DNA of 64,000 nucleotides from Alphaproteobacteria bacterium (GTDB lineage: Bacteria > Pseudomonadota > Alphaproteobacteria > SHVP01), in NCBI GenBank assembly GCA_016869765.1, contig VGES01000017.1, positions 1 through 64,000 on the forward strand. The letters run 5' to 3'. Both the position numbers and the translations under genes were made by a program. Below the pieces are notes generated by a model. That model saw only the letters and a program-made list of their open reading frames with translations, was not told the DNA's origin and made no database searches. Shown piece after piece: positions 23,845 to 64,000 of the stretch. Numbering within the stretch: position 1 is the stretch's first letter; each line of letters begins with the position of its first letter.

Positions 23845-23855
23845 CTTCGCCCCCC

Positions 23856-27653: not shown

Positions 27654-27675
27654 GTCCCGGGAACGACCCGCCGGA

Positions 27676-29253
27676 TCAGCGGGTCATCCACACCTCGCTC
27701 CAGCGATCGCGGCCGTCGACGCCCTTCCACAGGCCGTTCAACTTGCGCGAGGCGAGGTCGGTGCCGACCTCGTCGTAGAGCACGAGGGTTGGAACGTCTT
27801 CGTTGAGGATGCCCTGCGCTTCGCGATAGAGCCGCGCGCGCGTCGCCTGATCGGCCGCCGTCGCGGCCTGGCCCAGGAGGTCGTCCACCGCCTTGTTGGA
27901 ATAGCCGCTGGCGTTGAGGAATTGCGCCCGCGTCTCGTTCGTGAGGTAGATGCGGTGGTAGCCGATCGAGGGATCGCCGCTCGAGGAGAACGACTGCAAC
28001 GTGAGATCGAAGTCGCGTTCGGTGAAGACCTTCTGGATCATGACCGATCGTTCGAGCGGCACCAGGTTCACGTTGAGGCCGACCTGGCGCAGGTTGTCGC
28101 GAATGATCTGGCCGCCGGCGTTGAACATCGGCCGCGCCGGGTCGAACACCAGGTTCAGCGTCGTGTTCGGCGCGACCTTGGCCTGATCGAGCAGCGCCTT
28201 GGCCTTGCTCGGATCGAGCGGGTACTTCTTGGCGTAGGCCGCATCGGCATTCACGAGCCACGGGAAACCGTCACCGAACGCGCCGTAGCCAGGTCGGGCG
28301 TGGCCGTCCATGGCCTGGGCCACCTGCAGGTCGCGATTGATCGCCGTGGCCAGCGCTTGGCGCGCCTCCTTGGTGGCCAACGCCGGCCGGGCGGTGTTCA
28401 TCATCAAGAAGTACACGGCCGGCGTCGCCGAGCCGCGCTTGGCCTGGATGCGGTTGTTGTCGGCCAGGCGTTTGACGTCGGGGCGCGAGACGTAGAACTG
28501 GTAGAGGAAGTCGACCTCGCCGGTTTCGAGCGCCGTCGAGCGGTTGGGACCCTGCGGGATGATCTGGAAGACCAGCGCGTCGAGGTAGGGTTTGCCCGCT
28601 TCCCAGTAGGCGTCGTTGCGCACCAGGCGCACCGCCTGGCCGCGGTTCCATTCCGCGAACTTGAACGGACCGGTGCCGATCGGTTTCTCGTTGGCCGTGT
28701 TGGCCTTGATGTCGCTGCCGGCGTAGACGTGACGCGGAATCATCGGCGCCTCGAAGGGCGTCTGGATGTTGATGAACGGCGCGTAGGTCTCCTTCAGCTT
28801 GAAGACCACGGTGTTGGCATCGGGCGTCTCGATCTCGGGCGCCAAGCGGCGTAGCGTCGTCTGGGTTCGCGGATGGAGCTTGGCCAGCGCCTCGTCGTAG
28901 GTGAACTTGACGTCGGCGCTCGAGAAGTCCCGACCGTCGTGCCATTTGACGCCGCGGCGCAGGGTGAACGTGTAGGTCTTCTGATCCTGACTCACCGTCC
29001 ACTGCGTAGCGAGCGAGGGCTGCGGCTTGTAGTCGGGGTCGACCCACACCAGGCCCTCGAACAGCTTGGCCCCGATATCGCCTGGCGCGTTGCCGGTGGT
29101 GATGGCCGCGTTCAGCGTTTCGGGGTCCGAGTCGATGACGATGACGGCGGTCCCGCCCCGCGTCTGGGCGGACAGGTTCGTTGCGGCGAGGAGGGTCGTG
29201 CCGGCGAGCACGGTGCCGGTCAGCAAACGGCGGAGGAACGAGCGGTGGGTCAT
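27676..29253 (-). CDS. ABC transporter substrate-binding protein (family 5)
   Basis: 525 residues with a signal peptide (RSFLRRLLTGTVLAGTTLLA, cleavage near LSAQ). Family 5 marks are YTFTLRRGVKWHDGRDFSSA, PIGTGPFKFAEW and KEARQALATAINRD. It is the periplasmic receptor of the importer encoded by the following four genes. Its start overlaps the stop of the adenosine-deaminase-like gene (ATGA). That linkage, rather than the family name, is the best clue to the substrate: a nucleoside-like or purine-bearing molecule is possible. Confidence 0.9.
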   Translation of the reverse strand: MTHRSFLRRLLTGTVLAGTTLLAATNLSAQTRGGTAVIVIDSDPETLNAAITTGNAPGDIGAKLFEGLVWVDPDYKPQPSLATQWTVSQDQKTYTFTLRRGVKWHDGRDFSSADVKFTYDEALAKLHPRTQTTLRRLAPEIETPDANTVVFKLKETYAPFINIQTPFEAPMIPRHVYAGSDIKANTANEKPIGTGPFKFAEWNRGQAVRLVRNDAYWEAGKPYLDALVFQIIPQGPNRSTALETGEVDFLYQFYVSRPDVKRLADNNRIQAKRGSATPAVYFLMMNTARPALATKEARQALATAINRDLQVAQAMDGHARPGYGAFGDGFPWLVNADAAYAKKYPLDPSKAKALLDQAKVAPNTTLNLVFDPARPMFNAGGQIIRDNLRQVGLNVNLVPLERSVMIQKVFTERDFDLTLQSFSSSGDPSIGYHRIYLTNETRAQFLNASGYSNKAVDDLLGQAATAADQATRARLYREAQGILNEDVPTLVLYDEVGTDLASRKLNGLWKGVDGRDRWSEVWMTR

Positions 29254-42422: not shown

Positions 42423-43541
42423 ATGAAGTTCGCGTTCTTTCACCTGATGCCCTACACGCACACGACCGTCGAGCCGCAGGATTGGCCGGTGGCCAACAAA
42501 GCGTTCGACCCGGAGAAGGGCACCGAGCTCTACAAGACGTATCTCGACACGCTGGTCTATGCCGAGGAGTGCGGCTTCGACTGGATCGGCTGCAACGAAC
42601 ATCACATGAGCCCGTTTGGCCTGATGTCGAACCCGAACATCATCGGCGCGGCGCTCATCCCGCGAACCTCGAAGGCGAAACTGGCGATCGTCGGCAACCT
42701 GATCCCGTTGGTGAACCCGATCCGAGTCGCCGAAGAGTACGCCATGCTGGATGTGATGTCGGGCGGGCGGCTCCTGGCCGGCATGCTGCGGGGCATCCCG
42801 CACGAGTACGTCGCCTACAACATCGCAGGCGACGAATCCCGCGGCCGGTTGATCGAGGCGATGGCTCTCATCCGTAAAGCGTGGACCGAGCCCGAACCGT
42901 TCGGCTGGGAGGGCGAGTACTATCAGTTCCGTGCCGTCTCGATCTGGCCACGGCCGCGGCAACGTCCGCATCCGCCGATCATCATGTCGGGTTCGAACGA
43001 GGCTTCGGCGCGACTGGCGGGCGAGATGGGGGCGACGCTCGGCATTGCCGCCGTCAGCGACCTCAAGGGCGCCAAGAAACAAATCGAAGCCTACAAGGAC
43101 GCTGCACGATCGGCTGGCTGGGAGCCCAAGCCTGAGAACGTCTTGATCGGCATGATTTGCCACGTCGCGGAATCTTCGAGCCAAGCCAAGGAAGAACTCG
43201 AATCCGGTCGGCAATATTTCCAGAAGGTGCTGACCGGCGGCGTACGCACGGCGCAACGGCTCGTGTTGCAGAAAACGCGCTATTACGCTGCCGAAGACAT
43301 GGTCGAGTTCAAGGACGTGCGCATCAGGTTCGGTGCGACGGTGCAGGAGCAACTCGACAACGGCACCATGTTGTGCGGCACGCCTGAAGAGGTGGTCGAA
43401 CAGATCAAAGCGCAGCATGCCGAGCTCGGCTACGGCGTGCTCAACGTCAATATGAAGATCGGCAACCTGCCGGACGCAGCGATCCTCAAGGGGATGAAGC
43501 TGTTTTCCCAGCGGGTGATGCCGAAGGTCCGGAATTTGTAG
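42423..43541 (+). CDS. LLM class flavin-dependent oxidoreductase, paralogue 2
   Basis: 372 residues from the ATG at 42423, after GGAGGCGTAGCG. It has the same motif order as the gene at 17747: MKFAFFHLMPYTHT, NEHHMSPFGLMSNPN, RVAEEYAMLDVMSGGRL, PEPFGWEGEYYQFRAVSIWP and the ending LFSQRVMPKVRNL. It is a flavin-dependent monooxygenase of the luciferase barrel. It sits before a quinone oxidoreductase and a DUF1330 protein on the same strand, perhaps a redox cluster. Confidence 0.88.
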   Translation: MKFAFFHLMPYTHTTVEPQDWPVANKAFDPEKGTELYKTYLDTLVYAEECGFDWIGCNEHHMSPFGLMSNPNIIGAALIPRTSKAKLAIVGNLIPLVNPIRVAEEYAMLDVMSGGRLLAGMLRGIPHEYVAYNIAGDESRGRLIEAMALIRKAWTEPEPFGWEGEYYQFRAVSIWPRPRQRPHPPIIMSGSNEASARLAGEMGATLGIAAVSDLKGAKKQIEAYKDAARSAGWEPKPENVLIGMICHVAESSSQAKEELESGRQYFQKVLTGGVRTAQRLVLQKTRYYAAEDMVEFKDVRIRFGATVQEQLDNGTMLCGTPEEVVEQIKAQHAELGYGVLNVNMKIGNLPDAAILKGMKLFSQRVMPKVRNL

Positions 43542-49826: not shown

Positions 49827-50999
49827 ATGCCGTTGCTGTCCGAACTGAAGAAGAACGCCAAACGGGAACGCAAATTCACCGCTGACCCGCTCGATTCGTG
49901 GACGCTGCCTCCACACTACTATTACGACCCGGCGATCTACGAAAAAGAGAAGCGCGAGATCTGGTTCAAGACGTGGCAATACGTCGGCCTCGTGGCCGAC
50001 CTGAAGAACGTCGGCGACTACTTCACGACCCAGATTCTGGATCAGAAGCTGTTCGTCATCCGCTCCAAGGACGGCAAGATTCGAACCTTCTACAACGTCT
50101 GCCAGCACCGCGGGCACACGCTGTTCGACCCGGACACGCGCGGGAACGCCTTGCAGATCACATGCAAGTTCCACGCTTGGTCCTACGACACGTTCGGCAA
50201 CCTCCGGAATGCCCCGATGTCCGAGGTGGTCCGGAACTTCCATAACGAGGACTTCTGCGTTCCCGAGATTCGTACCGAAATGCTCGGGCCGATGATCTTC
50301 GTCAACCTGGACGACTCGGCCGCGCCGTTGATGGATCAAGGCGGCAAGCTGCTCCAGCGGTTCCGCGATGCGGTGGTCGGCTTCGATGATCTGTTGCTGG
50401 CGCGCCGCGAGGGCTTCCAGGTCAAGGCGAACTGGAAGTTCATCCTCGACGGCCTGGAGTGCTACCACTGTCCCTACATCCATCCGCAGTCGATGGGCCG
50501 CCGGGACTCGACCACGACCAAGACCTGGGACGCTCATATCGAGGGCATTTGGCAGGCGCACAGGACGCTCGGCAACTACGAGTTGATGGACAAGCATCCC
50601 GAGAAGTTCCCGTACCCGATCACCAACGCCACCAATCGCGACATCTACGTCTGGTTCATGTTCCCGAACCTTGTGTTCGTGTCGCGCCAAGGACCGCCCA
50701 ATTTCCAGATCCTGCACGCCATGCCCCAGGGGCCCGAGCAGTCGATCCGCTATCAGATCAACTTCTGCCCGAACGACCCGCCGAACGAGTTCGACCTCGG
50801 CCACATGAATCACTATCGCGATGTGGTATGGCCGCAGGATTGCGAGGCGATGGAAAAACAGATGTCGGGCATCAAGTCGCTCGGCTTCCGCCGCGGCCGC
50901 CTGATGACCGACGAATCGTCATCCTGGTGGAGCGAGGAGGGCACGCACCACTTCAATCATCTGGTCTGGAAGTCGCTCAACGGCGAGCACTACGCGTAG
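49827..50999 (+). CDS. Rieske aromatic ring-hydroxylating oxygenase, alpha subunit
   Basis: 390 residues. The Rieske [2Fe-2S] ligands are Cys92/His94 (NVCQHRGH) and Cys113/His116 (CKFHAW). The catalytic domain carries DGLECYHCPYIHP with His214 and His219 as Fe ligands. The third ligand is probably the Asp in WPQDCEAMEKQ. Such enzymes hydroxylate aromatic or quaternary-amine substrates with O2. No beta subunit or reductase gene is adjacent, so electrons must come from elsewhere. The following hydrolase is on the same strand after a repeat. Confidence 0.9.
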   Translation: MPLLSELKKNAKRERKFTADPLDSWTLPPHYYYDPAIYEKEKREIWFKTWQYVGLVADLKNVGDYFTTQILDQKLFVIRSKDGKIRTFYNVCQHRGHTLFDPDTRGNALQITCKFHAWSYDTFGNLRNAPMSEVVRNFHNEDFCVPEIRTEMLGPMIFVNLDDSAAPLMDQGGKLLQRFRDAVVGFDDLLLARREGFQVKANWKFILDGLECYHCPYIHPQSMGRRDSTTTKTWDAHIEGIWQAHRTLGNYELMDKHPEKFPYPITNATNRDIYVWFMFPNLVFVSRQGPPNFQILHAMPQGPEQSIRYQINFCPNDPPNEFDLGHMNHYRDVVWPQDCEAMEKQMSGIKSLGFRRGRLMTDESSSWWSEEGTHHFNHLVWKSLNGEHYA

Positions 51000-51020: not shown

Positions 51021-51070
51021 CCCTAGCCTCTCCCCTCCGCGGAGAGGGAGCGCGCAGCGCGGGTGAGGGG
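51021..51070. repeat. Intergenic palindromic repeat, copy 4
   Basis: CCTAGCCTCTCCCCTCCGCG pairs with the following GGAGAGGGAG. It closes with GCGGGTGAGGGG, the same ending as the other copies. It lies between the Rieske oxygenase and the hydrolase. Confidence 0.65.
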
Positions 51071-51164
51071 CAGCGAGCCAAGAGGCGTACCCCTCTGCTC
51101 GCCCGGCTGTCGCACGCTCTCTCTCTCCCTCCTTTCGGGGAGACCTCGCAACTCTCGGACACCC

Positions 51165-51992
51165 ATGTTGGTTCGTTTTCTCGATCTCGGTGGCTATCGC
51201 ACCCGCACCTACGTCGCCGGCTCGGGGCCGGCGCTGATCCTGGTTCATGGCGGCGGGGCGTCGGCTGATGCGTACGTGCGCAACATCGAGGTGTTGGCCG
51301 AGCGCCACACGGTCTACGCCCCGGACCTGCTCGGCCATGGCTTCGCCGACTGGCCCGACCCGAGGGGTAGGACGCCGCAGGAACTCCAGGTCGAACACCT
51401 CGGGCGCTTCGTCGATGCGCTCGGCCTCACGCGTTACACGCTGGCGGGCTGGTCGTTCGGCGGATTGGTCGTCGGACTCCATGCCCTTGCGCGACCGAAC
51501 CAGGTCGAGCGCCTGATCTTCATCGGCTCGAGTTCGGTGTTTCACCCGCTCGATCAGCGCAGGGAAATCCACCAGGCGGTCTTCGACAATCAGATCAAGG
51601 CGCTGGAGAACCCGAGCCGCGATTCCATTCGCAAGCGCAACACCGGATCGAATCACCGCAAGGACGATCCCTTCGAGGAGATCGTCCTGACACAGCTTAC
51701 GTTCTTCGCCTGGCCCCAGCGCCAGGAGGCTTTCCGCTACACGATCGAAGGATTGCAGCGCGCGACCGCGATGCCCGAACACCAGATGTTTCCGCGCCTC
51801 GAAGCGATCAGCGTGCCGACGCTGGTGATCACCGGCCGCAACGACCCACGGGCCAAATGGGACGTGGTCGACGCCAACGTCCGCCGCATCAAAGGGGCCC
51901 GCCACGAGATCATGGAGGGCTGCGGCCACAAGCCGTTCTCCGAGGACCCCGAGACGTTCAATCGCCTGGTGAAGGCGTTTCTCGCCGGCTAG
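51165..51992 (+). CDS. Alpha/beta hydrolase (meta-cleavage-hydrolase-like)
   Basis: 275 residues from the ATG at 51165. The oxyanion loop is LVHGGGASADAY, the nucleophile elbow GWSFGG, the acid ITGRNDP and the His EGCGHKPFSE. The layout fits C-C hydrolases of aromatic meta-cleavage routes and haloperoxidase-like esterases. The Rieske oxygenase upstream makes an aromatic pathway plausible. Its stop overlaps the convergent CoA-transferase stop by four bases. Confidence 0.83.
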   Translation: MLVRFLDLGGYRTRTYVAGSGPALILVHGGGASADAYVRNIEVLAERHTVYAPDLLGHGFADWPDPRGRTPQELQVEHLGRFVDALGLTRYTLAGWSFGGLVVGLHALARPNQVERLIFIGSSSVFHPLDQRREIHQAVFDNQIKALENPSRDSIRKRNTGSNHRKDDPFEEIVLTQLTFFAWPQRQEAFRYTIEGLQRATAMPEHQMFPRLEAISVPTLVITGRNDPRAKWDVVDANVRRIKGARHEIMEGCGHKPFSEDPETFNRLVKAFLAG

Positions 51993-53194
51993 ATCACGCC
52001 GGCCTTGCGCAGGGCAGTGATCTCGTTCGTCGCGAGACCGGCTTCGCGCAGAATTTCGTCCGTGTGCTGTCCATGTTCGGGCGCAGTCGCTTCGGGGTAG
52101 GCCATACCCGCCATCTGGATCGGGCTCGCCAGCAGTTGCACGGTCTTGCCGTCGGGGCGTTTCTGCGTGCGGATGCGCCCGCGGCGACGGACGAACGGAT
52201 TCTCCAGGGCGCCGGCGACGTCGCGTAGCGGCGCCGCGGGCACCTGTCCGGCGAAGCGGTCGATCCAGTCGTCGGTCGTGCGTGCGGCCAATGCCTGATC
52301 GAGCATGTCGCTCACCTCGTCACGGCGCTCGAAGCGATCCTTGAACGTGGCAAACCGTGGATCGCTCGCCCATTCCGGGCGGCTGATGATCTCGCACAGG
52401 CGGCCCCAGAACTTCTCCTTGTTGCACATCAGGAAGATCCAGCCGTCCTTGGTCTTGACGAGCTGGCAGGGGACGAGCGAGGGATGGGCCGAGCGCGGCC
52501 GGCGCCGCTCGTTGTGGCCGGCGGCCAGGTACCAATGCGCGACGTAACTCAGGTTGTAGAGCGCGGTGTCGAACAGGGTCACGTCGACATCACGTCCCTG
52601 GCCGGTGGTGCGCGCCGACAGGACGGCGGCGACCAAGCCGTACGACATCGACAGGCCGGTCATCATGTCGACGATCGACAGCCCCATGCGGGCCGGCGGT
52701 CCGTCCGGCTCGCCGGTGAGCGACAGGTAGCCGGCCTCGGCCTGCATCAAGTAGTCGTAGCCCGGCCAGGTTGCCCGCTCGTTGTCGCGGCCGTAGGCCG
52801 TGAGGTGCGCGCAAACGATACGCGGGTTGGCTGTCTTGAGGTCATCGTAGGTGAGCTTGAGCTTGCCCGGCACGTCGCCCCGCAGGTTGTGACACACCGC
52901 ATCGGCGTTCTTCACCAGCAGGCGAAACACGCGCTGGCCTTCTGCGCTTTTGAGGTCGAGCGTGAGCGAACGTTTGGCGCGGTTGTTGCTCTGGAAGAAC
53001 AGGCTGGCCGCGGAGTCCTGGGCGCCGTCGACGAAATACGGTCCGACGTGGCGGCCGACGTCGCCCTCCTTGGGGTTTTCGACCTTGATGATGTCGGCGC
53101 CGAGGTCCGACAGGTACTGCGTTCCGAACGGCCCGGCGCCGTATTGCTCGACCGCGAGGACGCGCACGCCCGCGAGGGGAAGAGGGAGGGTCAT
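51989..53194 (-). CDS. CaiB/BaiF family CoA-transferase
   Basis: 401 residues. The family III CoA-transferase pattern is PLAGVRVLAVEQYGAGPFGT, LGADIIKVENPKEGD and NRAKRSLTLDLKS, with the catalytic Asp176 in GLSIVDMMTG. It transfers CoA between carboxylic acids through an aspartyl-CoA intermediate. It follows the MaoC hydratase (9 bases) and the CitE-like lyase on the same strand. The trio equals the transferase, hydratase and lyase set used for itaconate or mesaconate. The substrate is inferred from this context only. Confidence 0.92.
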   Translation of the reverse strand: MTLPLPLAGVRVLAVEQYGAGPFGTQYLSDLGADIIKVENPKEGDVGRHVGPYFVDGAQDSAASLFFQSNNRAKRSLTLDLKSAEGQRVFRLLVKNADAVCHNLRGDVPGKLKLTYDDLKTANPRIVCAHLTAYGRDNERATWPGYDYLMQAEAGYLSLTGEPDGPPARMGLSIVDMMTGLSMSYGLVAAVLSARTTGQGRDVDVTLFDTALYNLSYVAHWYLAAGHNERRRPRSAHPSLVPCQLVKTKDGWIFLMCNKEKFWGRLCEIISRPEWASDPRFATFKDRFERRDEVSDMLDQALAARTTDDWIDRFAGQVPAAPLRDVAGALENPFVRRRGRIRTQKRPDGKTVQLLASPIQMAGMAYPEATAPEHGQHTDEILREAGLATNEITALRKAGVI

Positions 53195-53203: not shown

Positions 53204-53722
53204 CTAGTAGTTGGCGGTGTCGCCGACGGCATGCCCGCGCTTGGGCACCAAGAAAACACGCTCGTAGGTGATGACGGCGGTGCCGTCCTCCTTGCGACCG
53301 GTGGTGCGGATTCGGACGACGCCTGCCGTCGGTCGCGACTTCGACTCGCGCTTCTCCAGCACCTCCGACTCCGAGTACAGCGTGTCGCCGGCGAACACCG
53401 GGGCCAGCATCTTGATCTTGTCCCAGCCGAGGTTGGCGATCGCCTTCTGGCTCGTGTCGCTCACGCTCATGCCGCTCACCACCGAGAGAATCATGCTCGA
53501 GTTGACCACCATGCGGCCGAACTCGCTCTTGCGCGCGTACGCGGCGTCGAAGTGGAGCGGATGGGTGTTCATGGTGAGGATCGAGAACCAGATGTGATCC
53601 GATTCGGTGATCGTGCGGCCCGGGCGATGTTCGTAGACGTCGCCCACCGTGAAGTCGTCGTAGTAGCGCCCGAGATCTTCACGGTAGCGATTGGGGCCGA
53701 CCTTCTTGCTGCCATAACTCAT
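53204..53722 (-). CDS. MaoC-family dehydratase/hydratase
   Basis: 172 residues, a single hot-dog fold. The active-site region is ILTMNTHPLHFDAAYA (normally Asp-x-x-N-P-x-H-x-D), giving NTHPLHFD here, followed by KSEFGRMVVNS. ITYERVFLVPKRG closes the domain. Its length and motifs match itaconyl-CoA or mesaconyl-CoA hydratase-like members. It lies between the CoA-transferase and the lyase genes, so it likely hydrates the CoA ester before cleavage. Confidence 0.88.
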   Translation of the reverse strand: MSYGSKKVGPNRYREDLGRYYDDFTVGDVYEHRPGRTITESDHIWFSILTMNTHPLHFDAAYARKSEFGRMVVNSSMILSVVSGMSVSDTSQKAIANLGWDKIKMLAPVFAGDTLYSESEVLEKRESKSRPTAGVVRIRTTGRKEDGTAVITYERVFLVPKRGHAVGDTANY

Positions 53723-53830: not shown

Positions 53831-54664
53831 CTAGCCGCCCGCCAACGCCAGGGTGCGTCGCGCGCGGGTCACGAGCGGCAGATCGATCATGCGGCCGTCG
53901 ACCGTCACCACGCCCCCCTTGGCGGCCTCGAACGCTTCGACGATTCGTCGGGCCCGCGTGATGTCGTCCTCGCTCGGCCGCAACGCCCCGTGAATGGGCG
54001 CGACCTGCTTGGGGTGGATCGTCGCCTTGCTGCGAAAGCCGAGTTCGGCCACGCGCCTGGTTTCGGCGACCAAGCCCGCCTCATCGTCGAGCGCGAGCCA
54101 CACGCCGTCGGTGGCGACGATTCCGGCGCGGGCCGCGGCAAACGCGATCTGGCTGCGTGCCACCAGCAGACCGTCCCAGCTTTGCTCGCCGCCGGTCTCG
54201 GCGGTGAAATCGGCGGCTCCGAAACCGAGCGCCTCGAGCCTCGGCGAGGCGCCGGCGATGGTGCCGGCGTTGGCGAGCCCTTCCGTGGTTTCGATCACCG
54301 CCGACAGGCGGATTTCCGGGAACCTTGCTCCGAGCAACCCGTCGACCCAGCGCACCTCCTCGACCGATCCCACCATCGGGATGACGACGCCATCGGGCCC
54401 GGCCGGGGCCTCCAGTAGAGCCGCCAAGTCACGAACGCCGTGGACGGTCTTGGGCGAGTTGATGCGGACAAAACGCCGCGCGCCGTGGGTTGACGGTCTG
54501 GCGAGGTAGTCGATCACGCCGCGCCGGGCCATGTCTTTTTCAGGTGGCGCCACGGCGTCTTCGAGGTCGAGCGCGACCACGTCGGCGCCCGATTGCACCG
54601 CCTTGTCGAAGCGGTCGGGCCGCGATCCGGGGACGAACAGGAGGGTGCGAAAAAGACTCGGCAT
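53831..54664 (-). CDS. HpcH/HpaI aldolase / citrate-lyase beta-like CoA lyase (CitE family)
   Basis: 277 residues. Family marks: RTLLFVPGSRPDRFDKA, ALDLEDAVAPPEKD (Mg-binding acids), RINSP, the Glu in VIETTEGLANAGTI, GAADFTAETGG, and KATIHPKQVAPIH. CitE-type enzymes cleave malyl-, citramalyl- or beta-methylmalyl-CoA. With CaiB and MaoC downstream this fits citramalyl-CoA cleavage to pyruvate and acetyl-CoA (inference). A duplicate of its last 30 codons follows the stop. Divergent from the GntR gene, with the palindromic sites between. Confidence 0.9.
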   Translation of the reverse strand: MPSLFRTLLFVPGSRPDRFDKAVQSGADVVALDLEDAVAPPEKDMARRGVIDYLARPSTHGARRFVRINSPKTVHGVRDLAALLEAPAGPDGVVIPMVGSVEEVRWVDGLLGARFPEIRLSAVIETTEGLANAGTIAGASPRLEALGFGAADFTAETGGEQSWDGLLVARSQIAFAAARAGIVATDGVWLALDDEAGLVAETRRVAELGFRSKATIHPKQVAPIHGALRPSEDDITRARRIVEAFEAAKGGVVTVDGRMIDLPLVTRARRTLALAGG

Positions 54665-54769
54665 CGGCCGACCTCGTTGGAACGGCCCGGAGCATCGATG
54701 TTCGGTCGGCCTCGGTCAACGCATTTTCCGCGGTTCGCGGCACGGCCGCAGCGGTCGGCGGAACCCGGG

Positions 54770-54783
54770 TATTTTCGAAAATA
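54770..54783. promoter_or_regulatory. 14-bp perfect palindrome, putative operator site 1
   Basis: TATTTTCGAAAATA lies in the divergent gap between the CitE-like and GntR genes. TTCGAAAAT from it recurs at 54848-54856, with centres 74 bp apart, about seven helix turns. A binding site for the adjacent GntR-family protein is likely. Confidence 0.6.
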
Positions 54784-54846
54784 TCCATCGGCTGCATTAA
54801 GGATGGAGCCTTTTTTGCCGGCATTCGCCGGCCCGGACTCCGCAAC

Positions 54847-54871: not shown

Positions 54872-55654
54872 ATGACCAAGACCCGTCAGGAATCCGCGAC
54901 GACCGACCGCGGAATAGGCCCAACCGACGGGGCAGTGGCGACCATCAACGAGGTCGTCTACCAGCGTCTCCGCGCCGACATCATTGCCGGAGGCTATGCC
55001 CCGGACGAGCGCCTCCGTTTCGATGAGTTGCGCCGCCGCTATGGCGCCGGCATCGGCTCCTTGCGCGAGGCCCTGTCGCGGATCATCGCTGACGGCCTTG
55101 CGACGACCGAGAGCCACAAGGGCGTTCGCGTGGCATCCATGAACCGGCGCGACTTGTTGGACCTGGTGGCGGTCCGCAAGGTGGTCGAGACGGCCGCTCT
55201 GCGAAGCGCCATCGAGCAGGGTGGCGCCCGATGGGAAGCCGACATTGTCGCGGCCTTCGCGCGCTATGAGCGGGTCGTGCGACGCGACAAACGGCGCTCC
55301 GCTGACAACGAGCGCATCGCTCGTCACAACGCCTTTCATGCGGCCCTCGTTTCTGGTTCGCCTTCGAAGCGACTGCTGCAGATGCGAGCAACGCTGTACG
55401 CCCAAGCATGGCGCTATCTCGAGATGGCGTTCAAAAAAAGAACGCAGGATTCGGCGCTAACACTGGCCGAACACGAGCGCCTGATGCGGGCGACGCTGGA
55501 ACGGCGCGCGGCATTGGCGTGCGCGTTGGCCGAGGAGCACATCGAAAATGCGGCACAGCTCTTGTTGCCGTCGTTACCCGAGGGTCCGGAGGCGATCATT
55601 GCCTCGACCGCTGTCGCCGAAGGATCGAAAACCGGAGGCAAAGATGAACACTAG
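54872..55654 (+). CDS. GntR-family transcriptional regulator (FadR/FCD subfamily)
   Basis: 260 residues. A winged HTH lies at about residues 24-90 (VVYQRLRADIIAGGYAPDER, then GAGIGSLREALSRIIADGL). An all-helical FCD ligand domain lies at about 95-235, with the metal-type His/Asp pattern in RHNAFHAALVSGS and AEHERLM. It probably represses both its own strand and the divergent lyase genes until an organic acid or CoA ester binds. The last 11 bases overlap the binding protein gene. Confidence 0.9.
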   Translation: MTKTRQESATTDRGIGPTDGAVATINEVVYQRLRADIIAGGYAPDERLRFDELRRRYGAGIGSLREALSRIIADGLATTESHKGVRVASMNRRDLLDLVAVRKVVETAALRSAIEQGGARWEADIVAAFARYERVVRRDKRRSADNERIARHNAFHAALVSGSPSKRLLQMRATLYAQAWRYLEMAFKKRTQDSALTLAEHERLMRATLERRAALACALAEEHIENAAQLLLPSLPEGPEAIIASTAVAEGSKTGGKDEH

Positions 55655-57179
55655 GTCGGTTCTTTCTTTTTTGGTCGTTGGCCTGACCGTTCCCCTTCTA
55701 ACGGCCACCCCGGTGCAGTCGCAGTCGTCGCGGCCCGACACGCTTCGAATAGCAATTCCCAGTGTGCCCACCGATCGCGGCAACCCGTTCAACTCTGCGG
55801 TAACGCCGACCATTTTTACCGGTTCGGCGATCTTCGATCCGCTTGTCCTCGTTAACGAGAGCGGGCAGTTGGTTGCTCAGCTCGCGCGGGAGTGGCGGAT
55901 CACCGAGGATCGGCAGGTCTGGCGTTTCTCGCTTCGGCCCAACATCCGCTTCCAAAACGGCGAACCGCTTACCGCCCAGGCGTTCGCGTCGGCGATCGAG
56001 TATCTCGTCAAGGACGAAAAGGGCAAGACTTGGCGATCGGCGCCGGACGTGGTCGGAGTCGACAGCGCCCGTGCGGTCGACGACCTCACCCTCGAAGTCC
56101 GGACCAAGGCGCCAGACCCGATCCTGCCGAAGCGCCTCTCGCAGGTCCTGGCGCCGGCACCGAAAGCTTGGATGGACCTCGGATTCGATAAGTTCGTCGC
56201 CACACCCGTGGGAACCGGCCCCTATGTCGTCGAAAGTTGGTCGCGGGAAGTGGTTGCGCTTGCGGCGCATGGCGGTTCCTGGCGGGCCACCAAAATCCCG
56301 CGCATCGAAATCGTCGGACTGCCGGAGCCGGCGACCCGAGCGGCCGCCCTGATCACCAACCAAATCGACGTGGCCGGCAATCTGAATTTCGATGACATCA
56401 AGCGGATTCGTGACTCGGGGTACACCGTCGTTGTGGGACCCGCCTATCAGATGCTGTCGCTTGCGCTCTCGAACGTTGCCAAGAAGGATAGCCCGTTCAA
56501 CGATCGCCGCGTGCGACAGGCCGCGAACTACGCGGTCAACAAACAGGCGATCGCCGATGGCATCTTCCAAGGCCAGACCAGGGTCTCGGCCGGCCAGGGG
56601 GCGAGCCCGGGTGTCGTCGGTTTCAACCCGGCGCTTCAACCCTACCCGCAGAATGCCGAGCGAGCCAAAGCGTTGCTGGCCGAGGCTGGCTTTGCCAACG
56701 GGTTCAAGGGTGTGGCGGAGATCGCCGTTGGCTCGTTCACCGGGGACTCCGAACTCTACCAGCAGGTCGGACAGGATCTCGCCCGCGTCGGCATCAACCT
56801 CGAGATGCGGCAGGTGGTGTTCGCCGATTGGCAGCGCAAGCGCCTGACCAACACTTGGGACGGGATCGTGCACAACCTCTCTTGGTTTGCCGAACCGTAT
56901 GTCGATGCGGCGCGGTTCTGGACTGCGTTCTCGTGCTTGTCGCGACCCGTGTATGCCTGCGACGAAGAGATCCAGAAGGTGATCGCCGCGTCGAATCAGG
57001 AGTTCGATCCGGTCCGGCGAGAACGGCTCCTACAGGAGGTGATGGCCCGCTACCGTGAGGATCCACCGGCGCTCTACTTGGTCGAAGCCATCAACACGTT
57101 CGGCCTCGCGAAGCGAGTCCGCAATTTCAACCGCCACCACCGGTGGCTGATCTACAACGATATGAGCCTCGATGGCTGA
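55644..57179 (+). CDS. ABC transporter substrate-binding protein (family 5)
   Basis: 511 residues from the ATG after CGGAGG, inside the end of the GntR gene. The signal peptide is SVLSFLVVGLTVPLLTATPV, cut near QSQSS. Family marks: WRFSLRPNIRFQNGEPLTAQ, PVGTGPYVVESWS, VRQAANYAVNKQAIADGIF, AKALLAEAGFANGF. It has an 8-base overlap with the CocE-type hydrolase. No permease is encoded until 62 kb, after a second binding protein, so both may use that channel. Confidence 0.9.
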   Translation: MNTRSVLSFLVVGLTVPLLTATPVQSQSSRPDTLRIAIPSVPTDRGNPFNSAVTPTIFTGSAIFDPLVLVNESGQLVAQLAREWRITEDRQVWRFSLRPNIRFQNGEPLTAQAFASAIEYLVKDEKGKTWRSAPDVVGVDSARAVDDLTLEVRTKAPDPILPKRLSQVLAPAPKAWMDLGFDKFVATPVGTGPYVVESWSREVVALAAHGGSWRATKIPRIEIVGLPEPATRAAALITNQIDVAGNLNFDDIKRIRDSGYTVVVGPAYQMLSLALSNVAKKDSPFNDRRVRQAANYAVNKQAIADGIFQGQTRVSAGQGASPGVVGFNPALQPYPQNAERAKALLAEAGFANGFKGVAEIAVGSFTGDSELYQQVGQDLARVGINLEMRQVVFADWQRKRLTNTWDGIVHNLSWFAEPYVDAARFWTAFSCLSRPVYACDEEIQKVIAASNQEFDPVRRERLLQEVMARYREDPPALYLVEAINTFGLAKRVRNFNRHHRWLIYNDMSLDG

Positions 57180-59277
57180 CGCCGCCCGCTCCTCGCCTCC
57201 CGCGCGCGACCAGGTCGGCGCGGGAGGCCGATATCTCGGCTATGCCGCCGGGACGATCTCGGCGACAACGCGCTTCGTCACCGATCTCCCCTACAAGGTC
57301 ACGAAGACCGAAAACGGTGTCATTCCGCTGAAGGACGGGACCGAGATCGCAATCACGGTTTGGCAGCCCGACGGGCCCGGAACGATGCGACTGCCAGCCA
57401 TTCTCGACGTCATCGCCTATGGCAAAGGCACCATGACGTACCTCGGCGACGAACGCATCTACGGATATCTCGCGGGGCATGGATACGTCTGTGTGCGTGC
57501 CGACATTCGTGGCAACGGCGAGTCGACCGGCAGCATGCAGACTTTCATGGACGCGCCGGAGTGGACCGATACGGCGGAAATGATCGGCTGGATCGCGCGC
57601 CAGCCGTGGTGCGACGGCAACGTCGGAATGTTAGGCTACTCGTGGGGCGCGATCAGCGCCTACTATACGGCGATCCACGAAAAGCCGCGCGAACTCAAGG
57701 CGATCGCGATCGGCGGCTTTGTCACCAACCGCTTCCATCGCGGCGGCGTGGTCACTCGCCATCTGCCGACCTTCTTGGTCACGCTCCTGGCGATGCGATC
57801 TCGTCCACCCGATCCGCAGATCGTCGGTGAGTCCTGGCGCCGCCGCTGGTTCGAGCGCCTCGACAGTCTCGAGCCGATTGTCGACAAGGTGATCGCTCAC
57901 CAACGCTTCGACTCGTACTGGAACGCCTCGGCCGTCAATCATCGGGTCGCTGAACTCGGCGTGCCAGCATTCGTCGTTTCGGGAATAGCGGAACCCGTGA
58001 TGTCGTCCCACGACACGGCGATCGTGGCCGGTGCGCGGACGCCGGTGTTTGGAATCGTCGGCCCTTGGGGGCATAAGCGGCCGCACGACGGCGTTCCGGG
58101 GCCGGCAATCGGTTATCTGCAGGAGGTCCTGCGCTGGTTCGACCATTGGCTCAAAGGGCAGAACAAAGACGTTCTCCGATGGCCGAAGATGCGGCTATGG
58201 ATGCCCGAGGGAATCCCCGCCAAGAACTACTATCGCGACAATCCTGGGCGATGGCTCGCTGAGCGCGAGTGGCCGAGCCCAGCCGTCGAATCGCTTGCCT
58301 ACTACCTCGCGCCGCGGGCGTTGGTGAGCGACACACCGGAGCCGGCCCAGCTCTCGCACCGCTCGGTCCTGAGCGTCGGCCTGCGCTCGGGCGAATGGAG
58401 CCCATTTCTCGCCTACAGCCCCAGCCCCGAACTGCCCGGCGATCAGCGTGACGATGACGCCAAATCGCTCTGTTTCGACAGCGAGCCCTTGCGCGAGCGC
58501 CTCGAGATCGTCGGTCGGCCATCCCTGACCCTCGATCTCGCGGCCGATCGGCGCAACGGCTTCATTTGCGTGCGTCTGTGTGACGTCGCGCCGGATGGAG
58601 CGTCAAGTCGTGTTACCTTCGCGCTCCTCAACCTCACCCACCGCGACGATAACATCCAGCCGAAGGCGCTCGAACCGGGGCGGCGCTATCGCATTACGAT
58701 CGAACTCGAGTTCGCCTCCTACGCGTTTCGTCCCGGCCATCGCATCCGACTGGCGATTTCCACTTCCTACTGGCCGACGTGCTGGCCGACACCCGACCCG
58801 GCAACGATCACGGTCGACTGCGGCGGCAGCCGTCTTTCCTTGCCTGTCCGTCGGCCGCGCAGCGACGACGCCGCGATCCAGTTCGACGGAGTCGAAACCG
58901 CTCCGCCGCCGCAATTCAGCTCGATCGGGCCGTCCTACCGCAGAGATCGTCTCATCGAGCACCTCGATACGGGTCTGCTGGAAATAACCACCGAGGAAAC
59001 CAGCCTTACGAGGCTCGAGCACAATCAGTTGGTCTATGGCATGACGCGGCGGCAACGAGCGGCGCTTCGCGAGGGCGACCCTCTATCCGCGGTTCAGGAG
59101 GTCGACATCACCTGGCGGATCGAACGCGACACCTGGAAGACGCGAACGGAGACGCGGTTTCGCATGGCCGCGAACGCCACCGACTTCCTGGTCGATATCG
59201 GGGTTGACGCGTACGAAAACGAGAAACGTGTACGAGCGCGCGATTGGCACTTCACGATCCCGCGCGATCTGCTTTGA
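57172..59277 (+). CDS. CocE/NonD family hydrolase (S15 peptidase superfamily)
   Basis: 701 residues. The alpha/beta hydrolase part (about 45-330) has the strand LPAILDVIAYGKG, VRADIRGNGESTGS and nucleophile Ser157 in GYSWGA. His301 lies in GPWGHK. At the usual Asp position (GWYD in relatives) the sequence is SGIAEPV, so Glu274 may replace it. A jelly-roll PepX-C domain (about 360-580) follows, then about 120 extra residues. Members cleave esters or X-Pro amides. No signal peptide; it overlaps the binding protein gene by 8 bases. Confidence 0.88.
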   Translation: MADAARSSPPARDQVGAGGRYLGYAAGTISATTRFVTDLPYKVTKTENGVIPLKDGTEIAITVWQPDGPGTMRLPAILDVIAYGKGTMTYLGDERIYGYLAGHGYVCVRADIRGNGESTGSMQTFMDAPEWTDTAEMIGWIARQPWCDGNVGMLGYSWGAISAYYTAIHEKPRELKAIAIGGFVTNRFHRGGVVTRHLPTFLVTLLAMRSRPPDPQIVGESWRRRWFERLDSLEPIVDKVIAHQRFDSYWNASAVNHRVAELGVPAFVVSGIAEPVMSSHDTAIVAGARTPVFGIVGPWGHKRPHDGVPGPAIGYLQEVLRWFDHWLKGQNKDVLRWPKMRLWMPEGIPAKNYYRDNPGRWLAEREWPSPAVESLAYYLAPRALVSDTPEPAQLSHRSVLSVGLRSGEWSPFLAYSPSPELPGDQRDDDAKSLCFDSEPLRERLEIVGRPSLTLDLAADRRNGFICVRLCDVAPDGASSRVTFALLNLTHRDDNIQPKALEPGRRYRITIELEFASYAFRPGHRIRLAISTSYWPTCWPTPDPATITVDCGGSRLSLPVRRPRSDDAAIQFDGVETAPPPQFSSIGPSYRRDRLIEHLDTGLLEITTEETSLTRLEHNQLVYGMTRRQRAALREGDPLSAVQEVDITWRIERDTWKTRTETRFRMAANATDFLVDIGVDAYENEKRVRARDWHFTIPRDLL

Positions 59278-59304
59278 AACGAAACGCTGGGAAAGGACGA
59301 TCCA

Positions 59305-60321
59305 ATGACCGTGAAGATGACCGAGGCCGACACCGGGCCGAAAATCGACTACCGCACGCGGCGCATCGGCCACGTCAATCTGTTCGTCTCCAACATGGAG
59401 CGGACCCAGGATTTCGTGCGTGACATCTGCGGCTTCGAACGCACGGCGATCATCCCCTCGGCCCGCGCCTCGTTCTTTTCGAACGGCAACACGCATCACG
59501 ACATCGGCATCGTCGAGGCCAAGGGCCATGCCGCGGTTCGCAAGAAGTTTCCCGATCCGAACGAGCCCGAGGGGCGCGGATCGATTCCGGGGCTCAACCA
59601 CTTCGGTTGGGAACTCGAAAACGAATACGATCTCGTGCAGGCGCACGATCGGGCCGCCGCCGCCGGCATGAAGCCGCGGGTCACCAACAACGGCACGTCC
59701 TATTCCGACTACCTGTTCGCCCGCGATGGGAGTTGCCATCAGTTCTATGCCGACAACGAACTCGACTGGCGGGGGCAGTATACGGGCGGGGAGTGCGAGC
59801 ATCTCCATCGCTCGGTGAAGTGGGTGCCGGGCGAAAAATCGCCGAGCAAAGAGCCCTTCTACAACCCGAATGCCGTGATTCGCCGGGTCGAAGCGGCGCC
59901 GCTGCACCCGATGCGGGTTACGCACGCGGTGATGGTGTCGAACACCTTCGCCCAGTCGCTGCAGTTCTACACCGATGTCGCGGGCTTTCGCGTGGTCGAG
60001 CGCGGTTCCGGGGATTCCTTCGTCTACCTCGCGGGATCGGCCGCCCCGTACTCCATCGTCCTGCTACCGGAGCGCGATGGGCGCGTGAACGGCATGCACC
60101 ACGTGAGTTTCGAACTGTGGCCTCACGAGGACGTGACCAAGTCGGTGGCAGCGCTCAAGGCGCGCGGCGCAAAGATTCTTGCCGATCTCGATCTGCCGCA
60201 CAAACGGAGTGTCTGTATCGCCGATCCGGACGGCATTCGCTTCGAGTTTTTCGTCCGTCGCCCGGGTGGCTTCGCCGCCGTCGCAGCGCGGCGGGGCGAG
60301 GATCAGGCCTACGCGGCGTGA
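59305..60321 (+). CDS. VOC family protein, extradiol-dioxygenase-like
   Basis: 338 residues in two modules. The first is about residues 20-155 (HVNLFVSNMERTQDFV, HHDIGIVEA). The second is about 203-318, with His207 (THAVMVSN), His266 (MHHVSFEL) and Glu314 (IRFEFFV) in the 2-His-1-carboxylate spacing of type I extradiol dioxygenases. Ring cleavage of a catechol-like compound is possible. It lies 27 bases after the CocE-type hydrolase and before the second binding protein. Confidence 0.82.
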   Translation: MTVKMTEADTGPKIDYRTRRIGHVNLFVSNMERTQDFVRDICGFERTAIIPSARASFFSNGNTHHDIGIVEAKGHAAVRKKFPDPNEPEGRGSIPGLNHFGWELENEYDLVQAHDRAAAAGMKPRVTNNGTSYSDYLFARDGSCHQFYADNELDWRGQYTGGECEHLHRSVKWVPGEKSPSKEPFYNPNAVIRRVEAAPLHPMRVTHAVMVSNTFAQSLQFYTDVAGFRVVERGSGDSFVYLAGSAAPYSIVLLPERDGRVNGMHHVSFELWPHEDVTKSVAALKARGAKILADLDLPHKRSVCIADPDGIRFEFFVRRPGGFAAVAARRGEDQAYAA

Positions 60322-60461
60322 GACGCAGTTTTCTGCACCTTTGCGCCCGGCCGGTTCGTTGACGCGTTGAGCGGGTGTCTCTAGCATCCGGTCCGGACAA
60401 GAAGGGTGAGGCCGCCCCGTCGGGGCGTCGATCACCAAGCCACATTCCAGGGGAGGACTAC

Positions 60462-62054
60462 ATGCAGCGTAAGGATTGGTATCTCGGATTGCCGGTCGTG
60501 CTCGCGTTCGGGGTGAGCGCGATCGCGCTCCAGCCGGGTGAAGCACGCGCCCAGGCCAACGAACTCAAGATCGCGGTGTCGACGTTCGCGACCGAAACGC
60601 TCGACGCGGTCGACGGCGGCGTCGGTTCGTTCTCGTACCAACTGCCGCTCTACGACCATCTCGTAACGCTCAATACGCGCCGCCAGATGGTCCCGGGGCT
60701 GGCCGAAAGCTGGACCGTAACGCCGGACGGCAAGATCTACACCTTCAAGCTGCGCCGCGGCGTCAAGTTCCACAACGGCGACGACTTCTCGGCCGCCGAT
60801 GTCATCAATCACTTCACGGTGCGATTGCCGAAGTCGAAGCAAGGAATCTTCGCGAGCGAAATTGCCGGCCTGACGGAATCGATGCAGGCCCCGGATCCGA
60901 TGACCGTGGTCTGGACCCTGAAGAAAGCGGACGCCGACTTCTTCGGCAAACTGACGCCCTCGGATACGACGATCGGCGGCATCACGCCCAAAAAGGCGAC
61001 CGACGACCTCGGCACCGAAAAGTTCGCCGACATGCCGATCGGCACCGGCCCATTCAAGATCGTCGATCGCAAGAAGGGCGCCTCGATGCACTTCGATCGC
61101 GTTACGGCGCACGCCTATCGACCGGTGCCCAAGTTCGAGAAGCTACGCATCTCGCGCATCCCGGAAGAAGCGACGCGCGTCGCCATGTTGCAGCGTGGCG
61201 AGGCCGATATCGGCGAAGTCGACGTCGAGGCCGCGAAGACCGTGGTCGGGCACGGCGGTCAGGTCTTCGAGATTCCCAACGCCTATGTCGCGTTCATCAG
61301 CTTCATCGGCGCCTGGGAACAGAAGGCCAAAGACAACAAGGTTCCTGCGGCCGATGTCCGCGTACGCAAGGCGCTCGCGATGGCGATCAACCGCCAGGAA
61401 CTGCTCGACATCATGCTCGACAAGCGCGGGCAGCTGATCAACGCCTTCCTGACGTTCCAAGGGGGCCTGGGCTACGACGAGGCTTGGGAGAAGGCCAACG
61501 GCACGGCGTTCGATCCGGCCGGCGCGAAGCGGTTGCTCGCGGAAGCGGGTTATCCCAACGGCTTCAAGCAGAAGCTGTGGGCGATGCCGCTCGCCGGTGC
61601 GCCATGGTTCCCGAAGGCCACCGAGGTCATCGCCGACTACTGGCGGGCGATCGGCGTCGAAGTGACGTTCCAGCAGACCGACTTCGGGGCGCTCGGTCCG
61701 CAGATCTACAGCCGGGCCGAAGGGGCGCTCGGGGACGCGTACAATTTGCGTACCGGTCGCACCGACTTCGCCATCGGCAAGCTCAACAACTACATGACCA
61801 CGGACGGGCGCAACAAGGTCGCCAACATCAATTGGAACACGGAGTGGAACGCGGCCAACGACGTGCTCGATCCGAAGGCTCGCGAAGCGGCGTTCCAGAA
61901 GTTGGCGCGCGACTTCCGCGAGACCTACACGCTGATCCCGCTGTTCAACACGGGTGCGTTGTACGGCGCGCGGCGCGACATCGAAGGTTGGGAACCGACT
62001 CAAGGTTGGCCCAACATCTCGATGCGCTACGAGTATCTCGGCCGTCGTAGCTAG
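60462..62054 (+). CDS. ABC transporter substrate-binding protein (family 5), next to its permeases
   Basis: 530 residues from the ATG after GGGGAGGAC. Signal peptide with LPVVLAFGVSAIALQPG, cleavage near RAQA. Family marks: YTFKLRRGVKFHNGDDFSAA, PIGTGPFKIVDRKKG, VRKALAMAINRQELLDIML, AKRLLAEAGYPNGF. It is separated from the permeases by a hairpin-forming repeat, which often lets binding-protein mRNA outlast the rest. It is less like the 55644 protein than that one is like the 3662 protein. Confidence 0.9.
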   Translation: MQRKDWYLGLPVVLAFGVSAIALQPGEARAQANELKIAVSTFATETLDAVDGGVGSFSYQLPLYDHLVTLNTRRQMVPGLAESWTVTPDGKIYTFKLRRGVKFHNGDDFSAADVINHFTVRLPKSKQGIFASEIAGLTESMQAPDPMTVVWTLKKADADFFGKLTPSDTTIGGITPKKATDDLGTEKFADMPIGTGPFKIVDRKKGASMHFDRVTAHAYRPVPKFEKLRISRIPEEATRVAMLQRGEADIGEVDVEAAKTVVGHGGQVFEIPNAYVAFISFIGAWEQKAKDNKVPAADVRVRKALAMAINRQELLDIMLDKRGQLINAFLTFQGGLGYDEAWEKANGTAFDPAGAKRLLAEAGYPNGFKQKLWAMPLAGAPWFPKATEVIADYWRAIGVEVTFQQTDFGALGPQIYSRAEGALGDAYNLRTGRTDFAIGKLNNYMTTDGRNKVANINWNTEWNAANDVLDPKAREAAFQKLARDFRETYTLIPLFNTGALYGARRDIEGWEPTQGWPNISMRYEYLGRRS

Positions 62055-62094
62055 CCCTCGTTTGCCCCCGGCCCGCGGGAGGCTCCCTCCCGCG

Positions 62095-62153
62095 CCTCAC
62101 CCTCCCTCTCCCCTCCGGGGAGAGGGAGCGAGCGAAGCGTGCGGGTGAGGGGA
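62095..62153. repeat. Intergenic palindromic repeat, copy 5
   Basis: CCTCACCCTCCCTCTCCCCT pairs with GGGGAGAGGGAG across CC, and the copy closes with GCGGGTGAGGGG. A separate hairpin, CGCGGGAGG-CT-CCCTCCCGCG, lies just upstream (62074-62093). Both sit between the binding-protein gene and the permeases. Confidence 0.8.
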
Positions 62154-62173
62154 GCGCTTGGGGGAACGTCCCG

Positions 62174-63097
62174 ATGACCCGCTACGTCGCCGAGCGATTG
62201 TTTCAAGCGTTGCTGACGCTGCTCCTGCTGTCGGCGATCATCTTCTTCTTGTCGCGGGTCCTGGGCGACCCGGTCATGTTCCTGCTGCCCATGGATGCGC
62301 GCCAGGACGACGTCGATCGTCTGCGCGAAATCTACGGTTTCAACCGGCCGCTCATCGTCCAGTACCTCGACATGCTGGGGCAGATGCTGCAGGGCGACTT
62401 CGGCGAGTCGTTGCGACTGCGCGATCCCGTCATCGACCTGATTGCCGAACGCTGGCTCGCGTCGGTGCAGCTGATCCTGATCGGCATGTCGTGGGCGATC
62501 GTCGCGGCGTTGATCCTGGGCGTATTGTCGGCGGTCTACCGCGGCCGCCCGATCGACTGGATCGCCCGCACGCTGGCGGTGATCGGCCAATCGGCGCCGT
62601 CGTTCTGGATCGGGCTCATTCTCATCCAGCTGTTCTCGGTGCGCCTCGAGTGGTTGCCCTCGGCGGGGTACGGCGGTTTCGCCCACATGGTGCTGCCGTC
62701 GTTTGCGCTCGGCGTGTTCGCGCTCGCCGGCATGACCCGGCTCCTGCGCTCCTCGATGCTCGACGTGCTCGATTCCGACTACGTCAAGAAGGCCCGCATC
62801 ATGGGCGTCCCGGAGTGGCGCGTGATCACCAAGCACGCGCTCAAGAACGCGATCCTTCCGGTGCTGACCTTTGCCGGCGAATACTTCGCGCTCCTGGTGA
62901 CGGCGGGGGTCGTGGTCGAGACCGTTTACGCTTGGCCCGGCATGGGCACGCTCGCCGTCGATGCCGTCGTCAACCGCGACTTTCCGCTGATCCAGGGCGT
63001 GACGACGATGATCGCGGTCATCGTCATGAGCATGAACCTGATCGTCGATCTCTTGTATGCCTCCATCGATCCGAGGATTCGCCTTGGCCGCCGTTGA
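62174..63097 (+). CDS. Dpp-type ABC permease (DppB-like)
   Basis: 307 residues with six membrane helices. The N-terminal box is FLSRVLGDPVMFLLP, the EAA loop KKARIMGVPEWRVITKHALK. The ending is DLLYASIDPRIRLG. It is the first of two permease genes; the second starts inside its last codons. Confidence 0.92.
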   Translation: MTRYVAERLFQALLTLLLLSAIIFFLSRVLGDPVMFLLPMDARQDDVDRLREIYGFNRPLIVQYLDMLGQMLQGDFGESLRLRDPVIDLIAERWLASVQLILIGMSWAIVAALILGVLSAVYRGRPIDWIARTLAVIGQSAPSFWIGLILIQLFSVRLEWLPSAGYGGFAHMVLPSFALGVFALAGMTRLLRSSMLDVLDSDYVKKARIMGVPEWRVITKHALKNAILPVLTFAGEYFALLVTAGVVVETVYAWPGMGTLAVDAVVNRDFPLIQGVTTMIAVIVMSMNLIVDLLYASIDPRIRLGRR

Positions 63098-63974
63098 CAA
63101 GCCGACGTCCGTTCGTGGCCCTTTGGCGTGGTTCGCCGCCCGGCGTCGGCGTCGCTTGCCGCCGCTGCCGCTGATCCTGTTCCTGGCGCTCATCGTATTT
63201 GCCGCGTTGTTCGCCGATCTGGTCGCGCCCCACGATCCCAACGTCGCGGGGCTGCGCTTCCGCTTTCGCCCCCCGGTGTGGGAGGAGGGCGGCAGCTGGC
63301 AGTTCATCCTCGGTACCGACGCCCTGGGGCGGGACATTCTCTCGCGCATCATCCACGGCACGCGGATATCCCTGCTCGTCGGGTTGTTCTCCGTGGGCGT
63401 CGCGGGGTCGGTCGGCATCCTGCTCGGCATGGTCGCGGGCTATATGGGCGGGGTGGTGGATGCCGTGATCATGCGCCTCACCGACGCCACGTCGGCCGTG
63501 CCCTTGCTGCTGGTCGCGCTCCTGTTCGTCGTCACCCTCGGGCCGTCGTTCGGCAACCTGATCCTCGCCCTGGCGCTGCTCCTGTGGTCGCGTTACACGC
63601 GCGTCGTCCGTTCCGAGGTGCTGTCGCTCAAGGAACGCGACTTCGTCGCGCTCGCCCGCGTCGCCGGCGCCTCCAACGCCTGGATCATCGCGCGGCATAT
63701 TTTCCCCAACATCGTCAACACGGCGATGGTCATGCTGACGCTGCAACTGGGCACGGTGATCGTCGTCGAAGCGGCGCTGAGCTTCCTCGGCGCCGGCGTG
63801 CCACCGCCGACCCCTGCCTGGGGCAGCATGGTGGCCGACGGCCGCAACTACATCGCGACGCGGTGGTGGATCGCATTCTTCCCCGGCATGGCGATCCTGC
63901 TCACGGTCATGACCTTCAACCTGTTCGGCGATTGGCTGCGCGATCGCCTCGATCCCAAGCTGCGGCAGCTCTAG
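63084..63974 (+). CDS. Dpp-type ABC permease (DppC-like)
   Basis: About 296 residues. I prefer the TTG at 63084, 8 bases after GAGG and 14 bases inside the upstream permease gene; an in-frame ATG at 63057 gives nine more residues. The DppC box FILGTDALGRDILSRIIHGT, the EAA loop ALARVAGASNAWIIARHIFP and the ending DWLRDRLDPKLRQL are clear. The stop is directly followed by the ATG of the next gene. Confidence 0.9.
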   Translation: MAAVDKPTSVRGPLAWFAARRRRRLPPLPLILFLALIVFAALFADLVAPHDPNVAGLRFRFRPPVWEEGGSWQFILGTDALGRDILSRIIHGTRISLLVGLFSVGVAGSVGILLGMVAGYMGGVVDAVIMRLTDATSAVPLLLVALLFVVTLGPSFGNLILALALLLWSRYTRVVRSEVLSLKERDFVALARVAGASNAWIIARHIFPNIVNTAMVMLTLQLGTVIVVEAALSFLGAGVPPPTPAWGSMVADGRNYIATRWWIAFFPGMAILLTVMTFNLFGDWLRDRLDPKLRQL

Positions 63975-64000
63975 ATGGACGCGATCACGCACCCACTGCT
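63975..64000 (+). CDS. Start of next gene, probably the transporter ATPase (cut by window edge)
   Basis: An ATG directly follows the permease stop (TAGATG) and eight codons are visible (MDAITHPL). Operon order in Dpp-type systems predicts a DppD-like ATPase. The sequence is too short to confirm. Confidence 0.45.

Follow-up and report, generated by a model that had tools for sequence, protein, structure and literature searches.

Closest described systems

In the textbook type I extradiol dioxygenases, the C-terminal domain is the working one and the N-terminal domain is vestigial. The use of the C-terminal domain has been documented for the characterised enzymes of this type (PMC6880040, PMC3943285). 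A characterised precedent for the gene set considered here is the opa cluster of Pseudomonas sp. PTH10 for the meta-cleavage of 2,3-dihydroxybenzoate, in which one operon brings together genes for an extradiol enzyme, an ACMSD-like decarboxylase, an alpha/beta hydrolase, a Rieske dioxygenase and a binding protein. The encoded enzymes hydroxylate the ring, open it by extradiol cleavage, decarboxylate and hydrolyse a C-C bond (PMC6362003), and the gene kinds match the partner genes that we found next to relatives of VOC1, the two-domain VOC protein of our locus. The opa cluster differs in that no CocE-type hydrolase is mentioned in the passages cited and that it uses the classical lower pathway; the genome studied here lacks the aldolase of that pathway (see below). 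The asd cluster for acetosyringone of Pseudomonas rhizophila AS1 likewise combines the gene for a VOC protein, AsdC, with those for a transporter and for two alpha/beta hydrolases, but it is led by an FAD monooxygenase (PMC12911418). On the side of the hydrolase, CocE/NonD proteins from Mesorhizobium, Paracoccus and Ketogulonicigenium belong to the same subfamily as the one described below (35-38% identity over approximately 94% of the length) and share the kind of importer. Their loci differ in that the (incomplete) PLSDB gene tables list neither a VOC nor an alpha/beta hydrolase gene alongside, and in that the catalytic acid of the aligned proteins is Asp rather than Glu.

Layout of the operon and its importer

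The window, i.e. the whole stretch of 64,000 bases analysed, comprises bases 1-64000 of a 77,696-base contig (C17) from the genome of a freshwater-type alphaproteobacterium (3.99 Mb, 99.6% complete). A predicted operon of 11 genes spans positions 54872-67233 of this contig and is cut by the window end; its part further along the contig adds the genes of a pair of ABC ATPases, of a small VOC protein and of an alpha/beta hydrolase:

54872-55654, + strand, transcription regulator of the GntR/FCD type (PF00392, PF07729)
55644-57179, + strand, SBP1, family-5 solute-binding protein, SBP_bac_5 (PF00496)
57172-59277, + strand, CocE/NonD hydrolase, 701 aa (TIGR00976 over cut-off; alignments)
59305-60321, + strand, VOC1, two-domain relative of type I extradiol dioxygenases (PF00903)
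60462-62054, + strand, SBP2, family-5 solute-binding protein, SBP_bac_5 (PF00496)
62174-63097, + strand, ABC permease B (PF00528, PF19300)
63057-63974, + strand, ABC permease C, start uncertain (PF00528)
63975-64946 of the contig (63975-64000 inside the window), + strand, ABC ATPase D
64943-65923 of the contig, beyond the window, ABC ATPase F
65920-66393 of the contig, beyond the window, VOC2, small VOC protein, 157 aa
66397-67233 of the contig, beyond the window, alpha/beta hydrolase, 278 aa, last gene of the operon

The seven genes that a sequence-only reading of the window had named were all recovered with the families it had given (family models and coordinates), and its overlaps of 11 bases (GntR/SBP1) and 8 bases (SBP1/CocE) proved exact. 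The latter depends on the start codon ATG 57172, for which there is no alternative before the conserved part of the protein, and CocE relatives start about 40 residues later. The gaps after the CocE gene amount to 27 (VOC1), 140 (SBP2), 119 (permease B) and -41 bases (permease C), and those beyond permease C to 0 (ATPase D), -4 (ATPase F), -4 (VOC2) and +3 bases (alpha/beta hydrolase). An alternative start of permease C at TTG 63084 has a better ribosome-binding site. This tight packing of 11 genes on the same strand favours one operon, and we infer co-transcription from it. GC-rich palindromic repeats resembling REP elements occur at 62085-62145, inside the operon in the gap between SBP2 and permease B, and at 51039-51130; the count of the REP-like pattern was at chance level with 3 mismatches allowed.

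The search for ATPases and further enzymes to the right, which the earlier reading had proposed, yielded ATPases D and F, VOC2 and the alpha/beta hydrolase. With these two ATPases, the first of which starts just before the window end, the Opp/Dpp-type ABC importer is complete, with two family-5 receptors (PF00496 twice), two permeases (PF00528 twice) and two ATPases in one operon; the Walker A motifs GESGSGKS and GESGCGKT were read in ATPases D and F, respectively. SBP1 and SBP2 share only 27% identity over 365 residues and are therefore not the result of a recent duplication. It is plausible that the two receptors serve one permease pair. A second importer operon of the Opp/Dpp type is present at 22921-29253 on the - strand of the window, followed by a possible VOC-like protein at 22921-23844, and a similar importer operon, accompanied by a nitrilase-like gene and possibly by a VOC-like one, was found on contig C41 of genome G000 (locus L010).

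The CocE/NonD hydrolase

The CocE protein scored 233.1 bits with TIGR00976, far above the cut-off of 66.3, and stayed far under the cut-offs of the models for X-Pro peptidases. Its catalytic Ser (GYSWG) and His (GPWGH) are kept in the alignments, and the position of the acid is occupied by Glu. The same Glu is present in the CocE protein encoded at 1371-3359 of locus L018 from another genus (see below), which is likewise located beside a Gln-type VOC gene, and the other aligned relatives carry Asp. A scan of genome contigs with CocE gave no match. CocE relatives of the long subtype adjoin an ABC importer in all nine annotated plasmid loci, which represent the top of the match list and no random sample; one of these importers is of the glycine-betaine type, and in the others the binding protein or the permeases belong to the Opp/Dpp kind.

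Conservation of the gene neighbourhood

Because searches at the order and family levels provided only 10 genomes each, the search for conserved loci was extended to the class and to matches of peptide patterns. The gene order SBP1-CocE-VOC, whose conservation had been suggested as a check of the operon, recurred in a second genus of the same family, namely in locus L018 of a metagenome-assembled alphaproteobacterium (CANJEJ010000134), with identities of 51, 45 and 54%, respectively; this contig starts inside the SBP1 gene. Behind the VOC gene follow genes of the Amidohydro_2, alpha/beta hydrolase, FAH, two-domain Rid and enoyl-CoA hydratase kinds, and the alpha/beta hydrolase is 52% identical to that encoded by the last gene of our operon. 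A paralogue of VOC1 in the window's own genome (53% identity) adjoins Amidohydro_2, Rid and enoyl-CoA hydratase genes. A tblastn search of VOC1 against plasmids gave no match. Judging by the conserved order, the grouping of these genes is more than chance.

Among 39 gene clusters with VOC1 relatives, we counted PcaD/HsaD-like alpha/beta hydrolases in 22, Rid proteins in 15, Rieske proteins in 12, GntR regulators in 11 and Amidohydro_2 proteins in 10. Within two genes of the VOC1 relative, alpha/beta hydrolases were present in 19 of 38 cases, compared to 19 of 234 positions of the background (p 4e-9), Rieske proteins in 9 of 38 compared to 6 of 234 (p 2e-5), and Amidohydro_2 proteins in 7 of 38 compared to 7 of 234 (p 1e-3). 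Because the clusters are related by descent and the background was drawn from the same loci, these p-values are optimistic and serve as a guide only. The neighbours of the VOC1 family constitute a meta-cleavage-like gene set. TenA-like genes adjoin VOC1 relatives in several genomes (loci L053, L048, L071 and L069).

Two further genes of the window are located upstream of the operon, outside the region that the sequence-only reading had covered, and had been missed there:

49827-50999, + strand, alpha subunit of a Rieske ring-hydroxylating oxygenase, 390 aa (PF00355, PF00848)
51165-51992, + strand, PcaD/HsaD-like alpha/beta hydrolase, 275 aa, paralogue of the last operon gene

Relatives of this Rieske protein with 47-48% identity adjoin VOC1 relatives in loci L046 and L052. 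Because genes of the same two kinds flank the VOC1 relatives there, we counted both genes to the set. Another Rieske oxygenase gene is located on the - strand at 75175-76356 of contig C17 (15175-16356 of locus L009), 8 kb downstream of the operon, and reading of the sequences also revealed two similar genes for luciferase-like flavin monooxygenases at 17747-18868 and 42423-43541.

Regulation and the divergent CoA module

The GntR gene is separated by a gap of 207 bases from a divergent group of three genes, the CoA module:

51989-53194, - strand, CoA-transferase family III, CaiB-like (PF02515, 380 bits)
53204-53722, - strand, MaoC-type hydratase, RipB/Ich-like (below cut-off, 227 of 340 bits)
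53831-54664, - strand, CitE/HpcH-type lyase, RipC/Ccl-like (below cut-off, 253 of 375 bits)
54769-54784, no strand assigned, palindrome GTATTTTCGAAAATAT, candidate GntR operator in the gap between the CitE and GntR genes

The trio resembles the Rip pathway of itaconate degradation, with scores below the equivalog cut-offs for RipB and RipC. The palindrome GTATTTTCGAAAATAT occurs nowhere else in the 3.99 Mb genome with up to 2 mismatches, and its inner 14 bases would be expected 0.01 times in the window. In the simplest reading, it would be a local operator bound by GntR and serving both divergent operons. The earlier suggestion that the CoA module finishes the breakdown is backed only indirectly, by this shared intergenic region with its genome-unique palindrome, and no conserved linkage of the CaiB-MaoC-CitE trio with VOC1 was found among the loci read.

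Proposed pathway and alternatives

The gene content suggests a real catabolic operon of ordinary import-and-degrade design, in which the genes are combined in an unusual way; literature searches found no described operon of such composition. The genes, their order with its conservation in part and the catalytic residue set of the VOC family in its N-terminal domain are observed directly, and we infer the part of the CoA module and each of the following steps. The operon would be controlled by GntR through the palindrome, and the two family-5 receptors would feed one Opp/Dpp-type importer (B, C, D, F). What it takes up is most likely an aromatic compound carrying an ester or amide, which the CocE-type serine hydrolase would cleave inside the cell. 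The type I extradiol-like VOC1 would open the ring after its hydroxylation, probably by a Rieske enzyme such as the one encoded at 49827-50999, and the ring-cleavage product would be cut by the PcaD/HsaD-like alpha/beta hydrolase. No match over the cut-off was obtained for 4-hydroxy-2-oxovalerate aldolase (TIGR03217) in the 99.6% complete genome, which argues for the absence of the classical lower meta pathway and for a different pathway end. The import-and-degrade proposal as such has gained good support from the presence of the ATPases, the recurrent proximity of CocE relatives to ABC importers and the occurrence of the VOC family in meta-cleavage-like sets. We regard a GntR-controlled operon of 11 genes for import, hydrolysis and ring opening of an aromatic ester or amide as rather probable.

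A different role would follow if the operon served the uptake and hydrolysis of peptides or N-acyl-amino acids. CocE would then be an amidase or a peptidase of the X-Pro-like type, and the genes for the VOC proteins and the alpha/beta hydrolase would be mere passengers. The families PF02129 and PF08530 take their names from X-Pro dipeptidyl-peptidase, the importer belongs to the Opp/Dpp kind, and the plasmid relatives usually combine CocE with a complete importer of this kind and no listed VOC gene. However, it is a VOC gene that has been conserved next to CocE in both genera, genes for Rieske proteins and alpha/beta hydrolases recur around the VOC family, and the model exceeding its cut-off is that for CocE/NonD and none of those for X-Pro peptidases, which makes this function quite unlikely. 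Another question is whether the genes form one transcript: GntR-SBP1-CocE-VOC1 might be followed by a second operon, SBP2-B-C-D-F-VOC2-alpha/beta hydrolase, whose own promoter would lie in the 140-base gap. The gaps of 140 and 119 bases and the promoter-like match at 60359-60387 between VOC1 and SBP2 allow for separate transcripts, and SBP2 has a strong ribosome-binding site (GGGGAGGA) 5' of ATG 60462. However, this match was the only one in a scan with 1.5 expected by chance, neither the promoter nor the terminator counts exceeded chance, and no terminator-like site was found in the 140-base gap. We therefore consider a split into two operons doubtful and retain the single operon.

Predicted catalytic residues of VOC1

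The AF2 model of VOC1 (pLDDT 92.5) gave catechol 2,3-dioxygenase (1mpy) as best fold match in the PDB (Foldseek, E 1e-17), and the protein has the two VOC domains and C23O-like fold of type I extradiol dioxygenases (XylE/C23O, BphC, HPCD). In the family alignment, H23, H65-D66, H99 and Y148 of the N-terminal domain are invariant and Y136 nearly so. The profile of the N-terminal domain alone aligned with residues 150-268 of 1mpy, i.e. its catalytic domain, placing the five catalytic residues H153, H199, H214, Y255 and E265 of XylE at H23, H65, H99, Y136 and position 146. We take E265 to be the third ligand and H199 and Y255 to be the acid-base residues of XylE. VOC1 accordingly possesses the second-sphere His/Tyr pair (H65, Y136), but the predicted ligands in the same site are H23, H99 and Q146 instead of a 2-His-1-Glu triad. 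Across the 54 aligned sequences, the N-terminal domain holds the conserved set and the C-terminal ligands decay in most. The C-terminal domain was rejected as the active one in VOC1, as the alignment places the conserved set in the other domain and the C-terminal one lacks the acid-base His and Tyr. Sequence comparison thus predicts that the iron-type catalytic site has shifted to the N-terminal domain in the VOC1 family, with the division of labour between the domains reversed.

Position 146 is occupied by Glu in 47 of the 54 sequences and by Gln in 6, with a gap in the single broken row (L110). The Gln sequences, from the window, L018, the paralogue in the window's genome and three genes from another family, group together in a single clade (SH-aLRT 99). 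Most likely, the change from Glu to Gln therefore happened once and was then kept. All six also possess H207, H266 and E314 in the C-terminal domain, compared to 6 of the 47 Glu sequences (Fisher p 4e-5, treating related sequences as independent). The assignment of VOC1 as extradiol-like thus holds for the family, but has to be qualified for the N-terminal location of the site and the third ligand of the clade, and with Gln in this position dioxygenase activity is not assured. VOC1 might no longer cleave rings, the change at position 146 having turned it into an isomerase, a C-C lyase or a binding protein, as would fit with Gln in all six clade members and the replacement of Tyr136 by Phe in one of them. 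However, H23, H65, D66, H99 and Y148 are invariant although the members are only 43-53% identical to the window's VOC1, indicating that the site is under strong constraint, and the gene retains its catabolic company; we regard a loss of ring cleavage as somewhat doubtful. Tentatively, the branch may instead be extradiol-like with a working His-His-Gln site in the N-terminal domain, or may have two metal sites, one of His-His-Gln with the acid-base His/Tyr and one of His-His-Glu in the C-terminal domain, and its substrate may derive from an aromatic ester or amide that has been imported, as part of a pathway not yet described. The Gln clade offers a natural way of testing whether another group can stand in for the carboxylate in the facial triad.

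The VOC1 family with its predicted reversed domain roles occurs in Alpha- and Betaproteobacteria and in Chloroflexota. With this reversal and a copy number that reaches 17 in a single lake genome, the family may mark overlooked pathways of aromatic degradation for dissolved organic matter. The genome concerned (G165, VGEO01), obtained from a lake offshore metagenome at 80 m, contains 17 VOC1-family paralogues in 3.6 Mb. Paralogue expansions for recalcitrant organic matter have been described for SAR202, which resembles G165 in having many oxygenase paralogues in one aquatic genome but belongs to another phylum and involves other enzyme families (PMC6946804).
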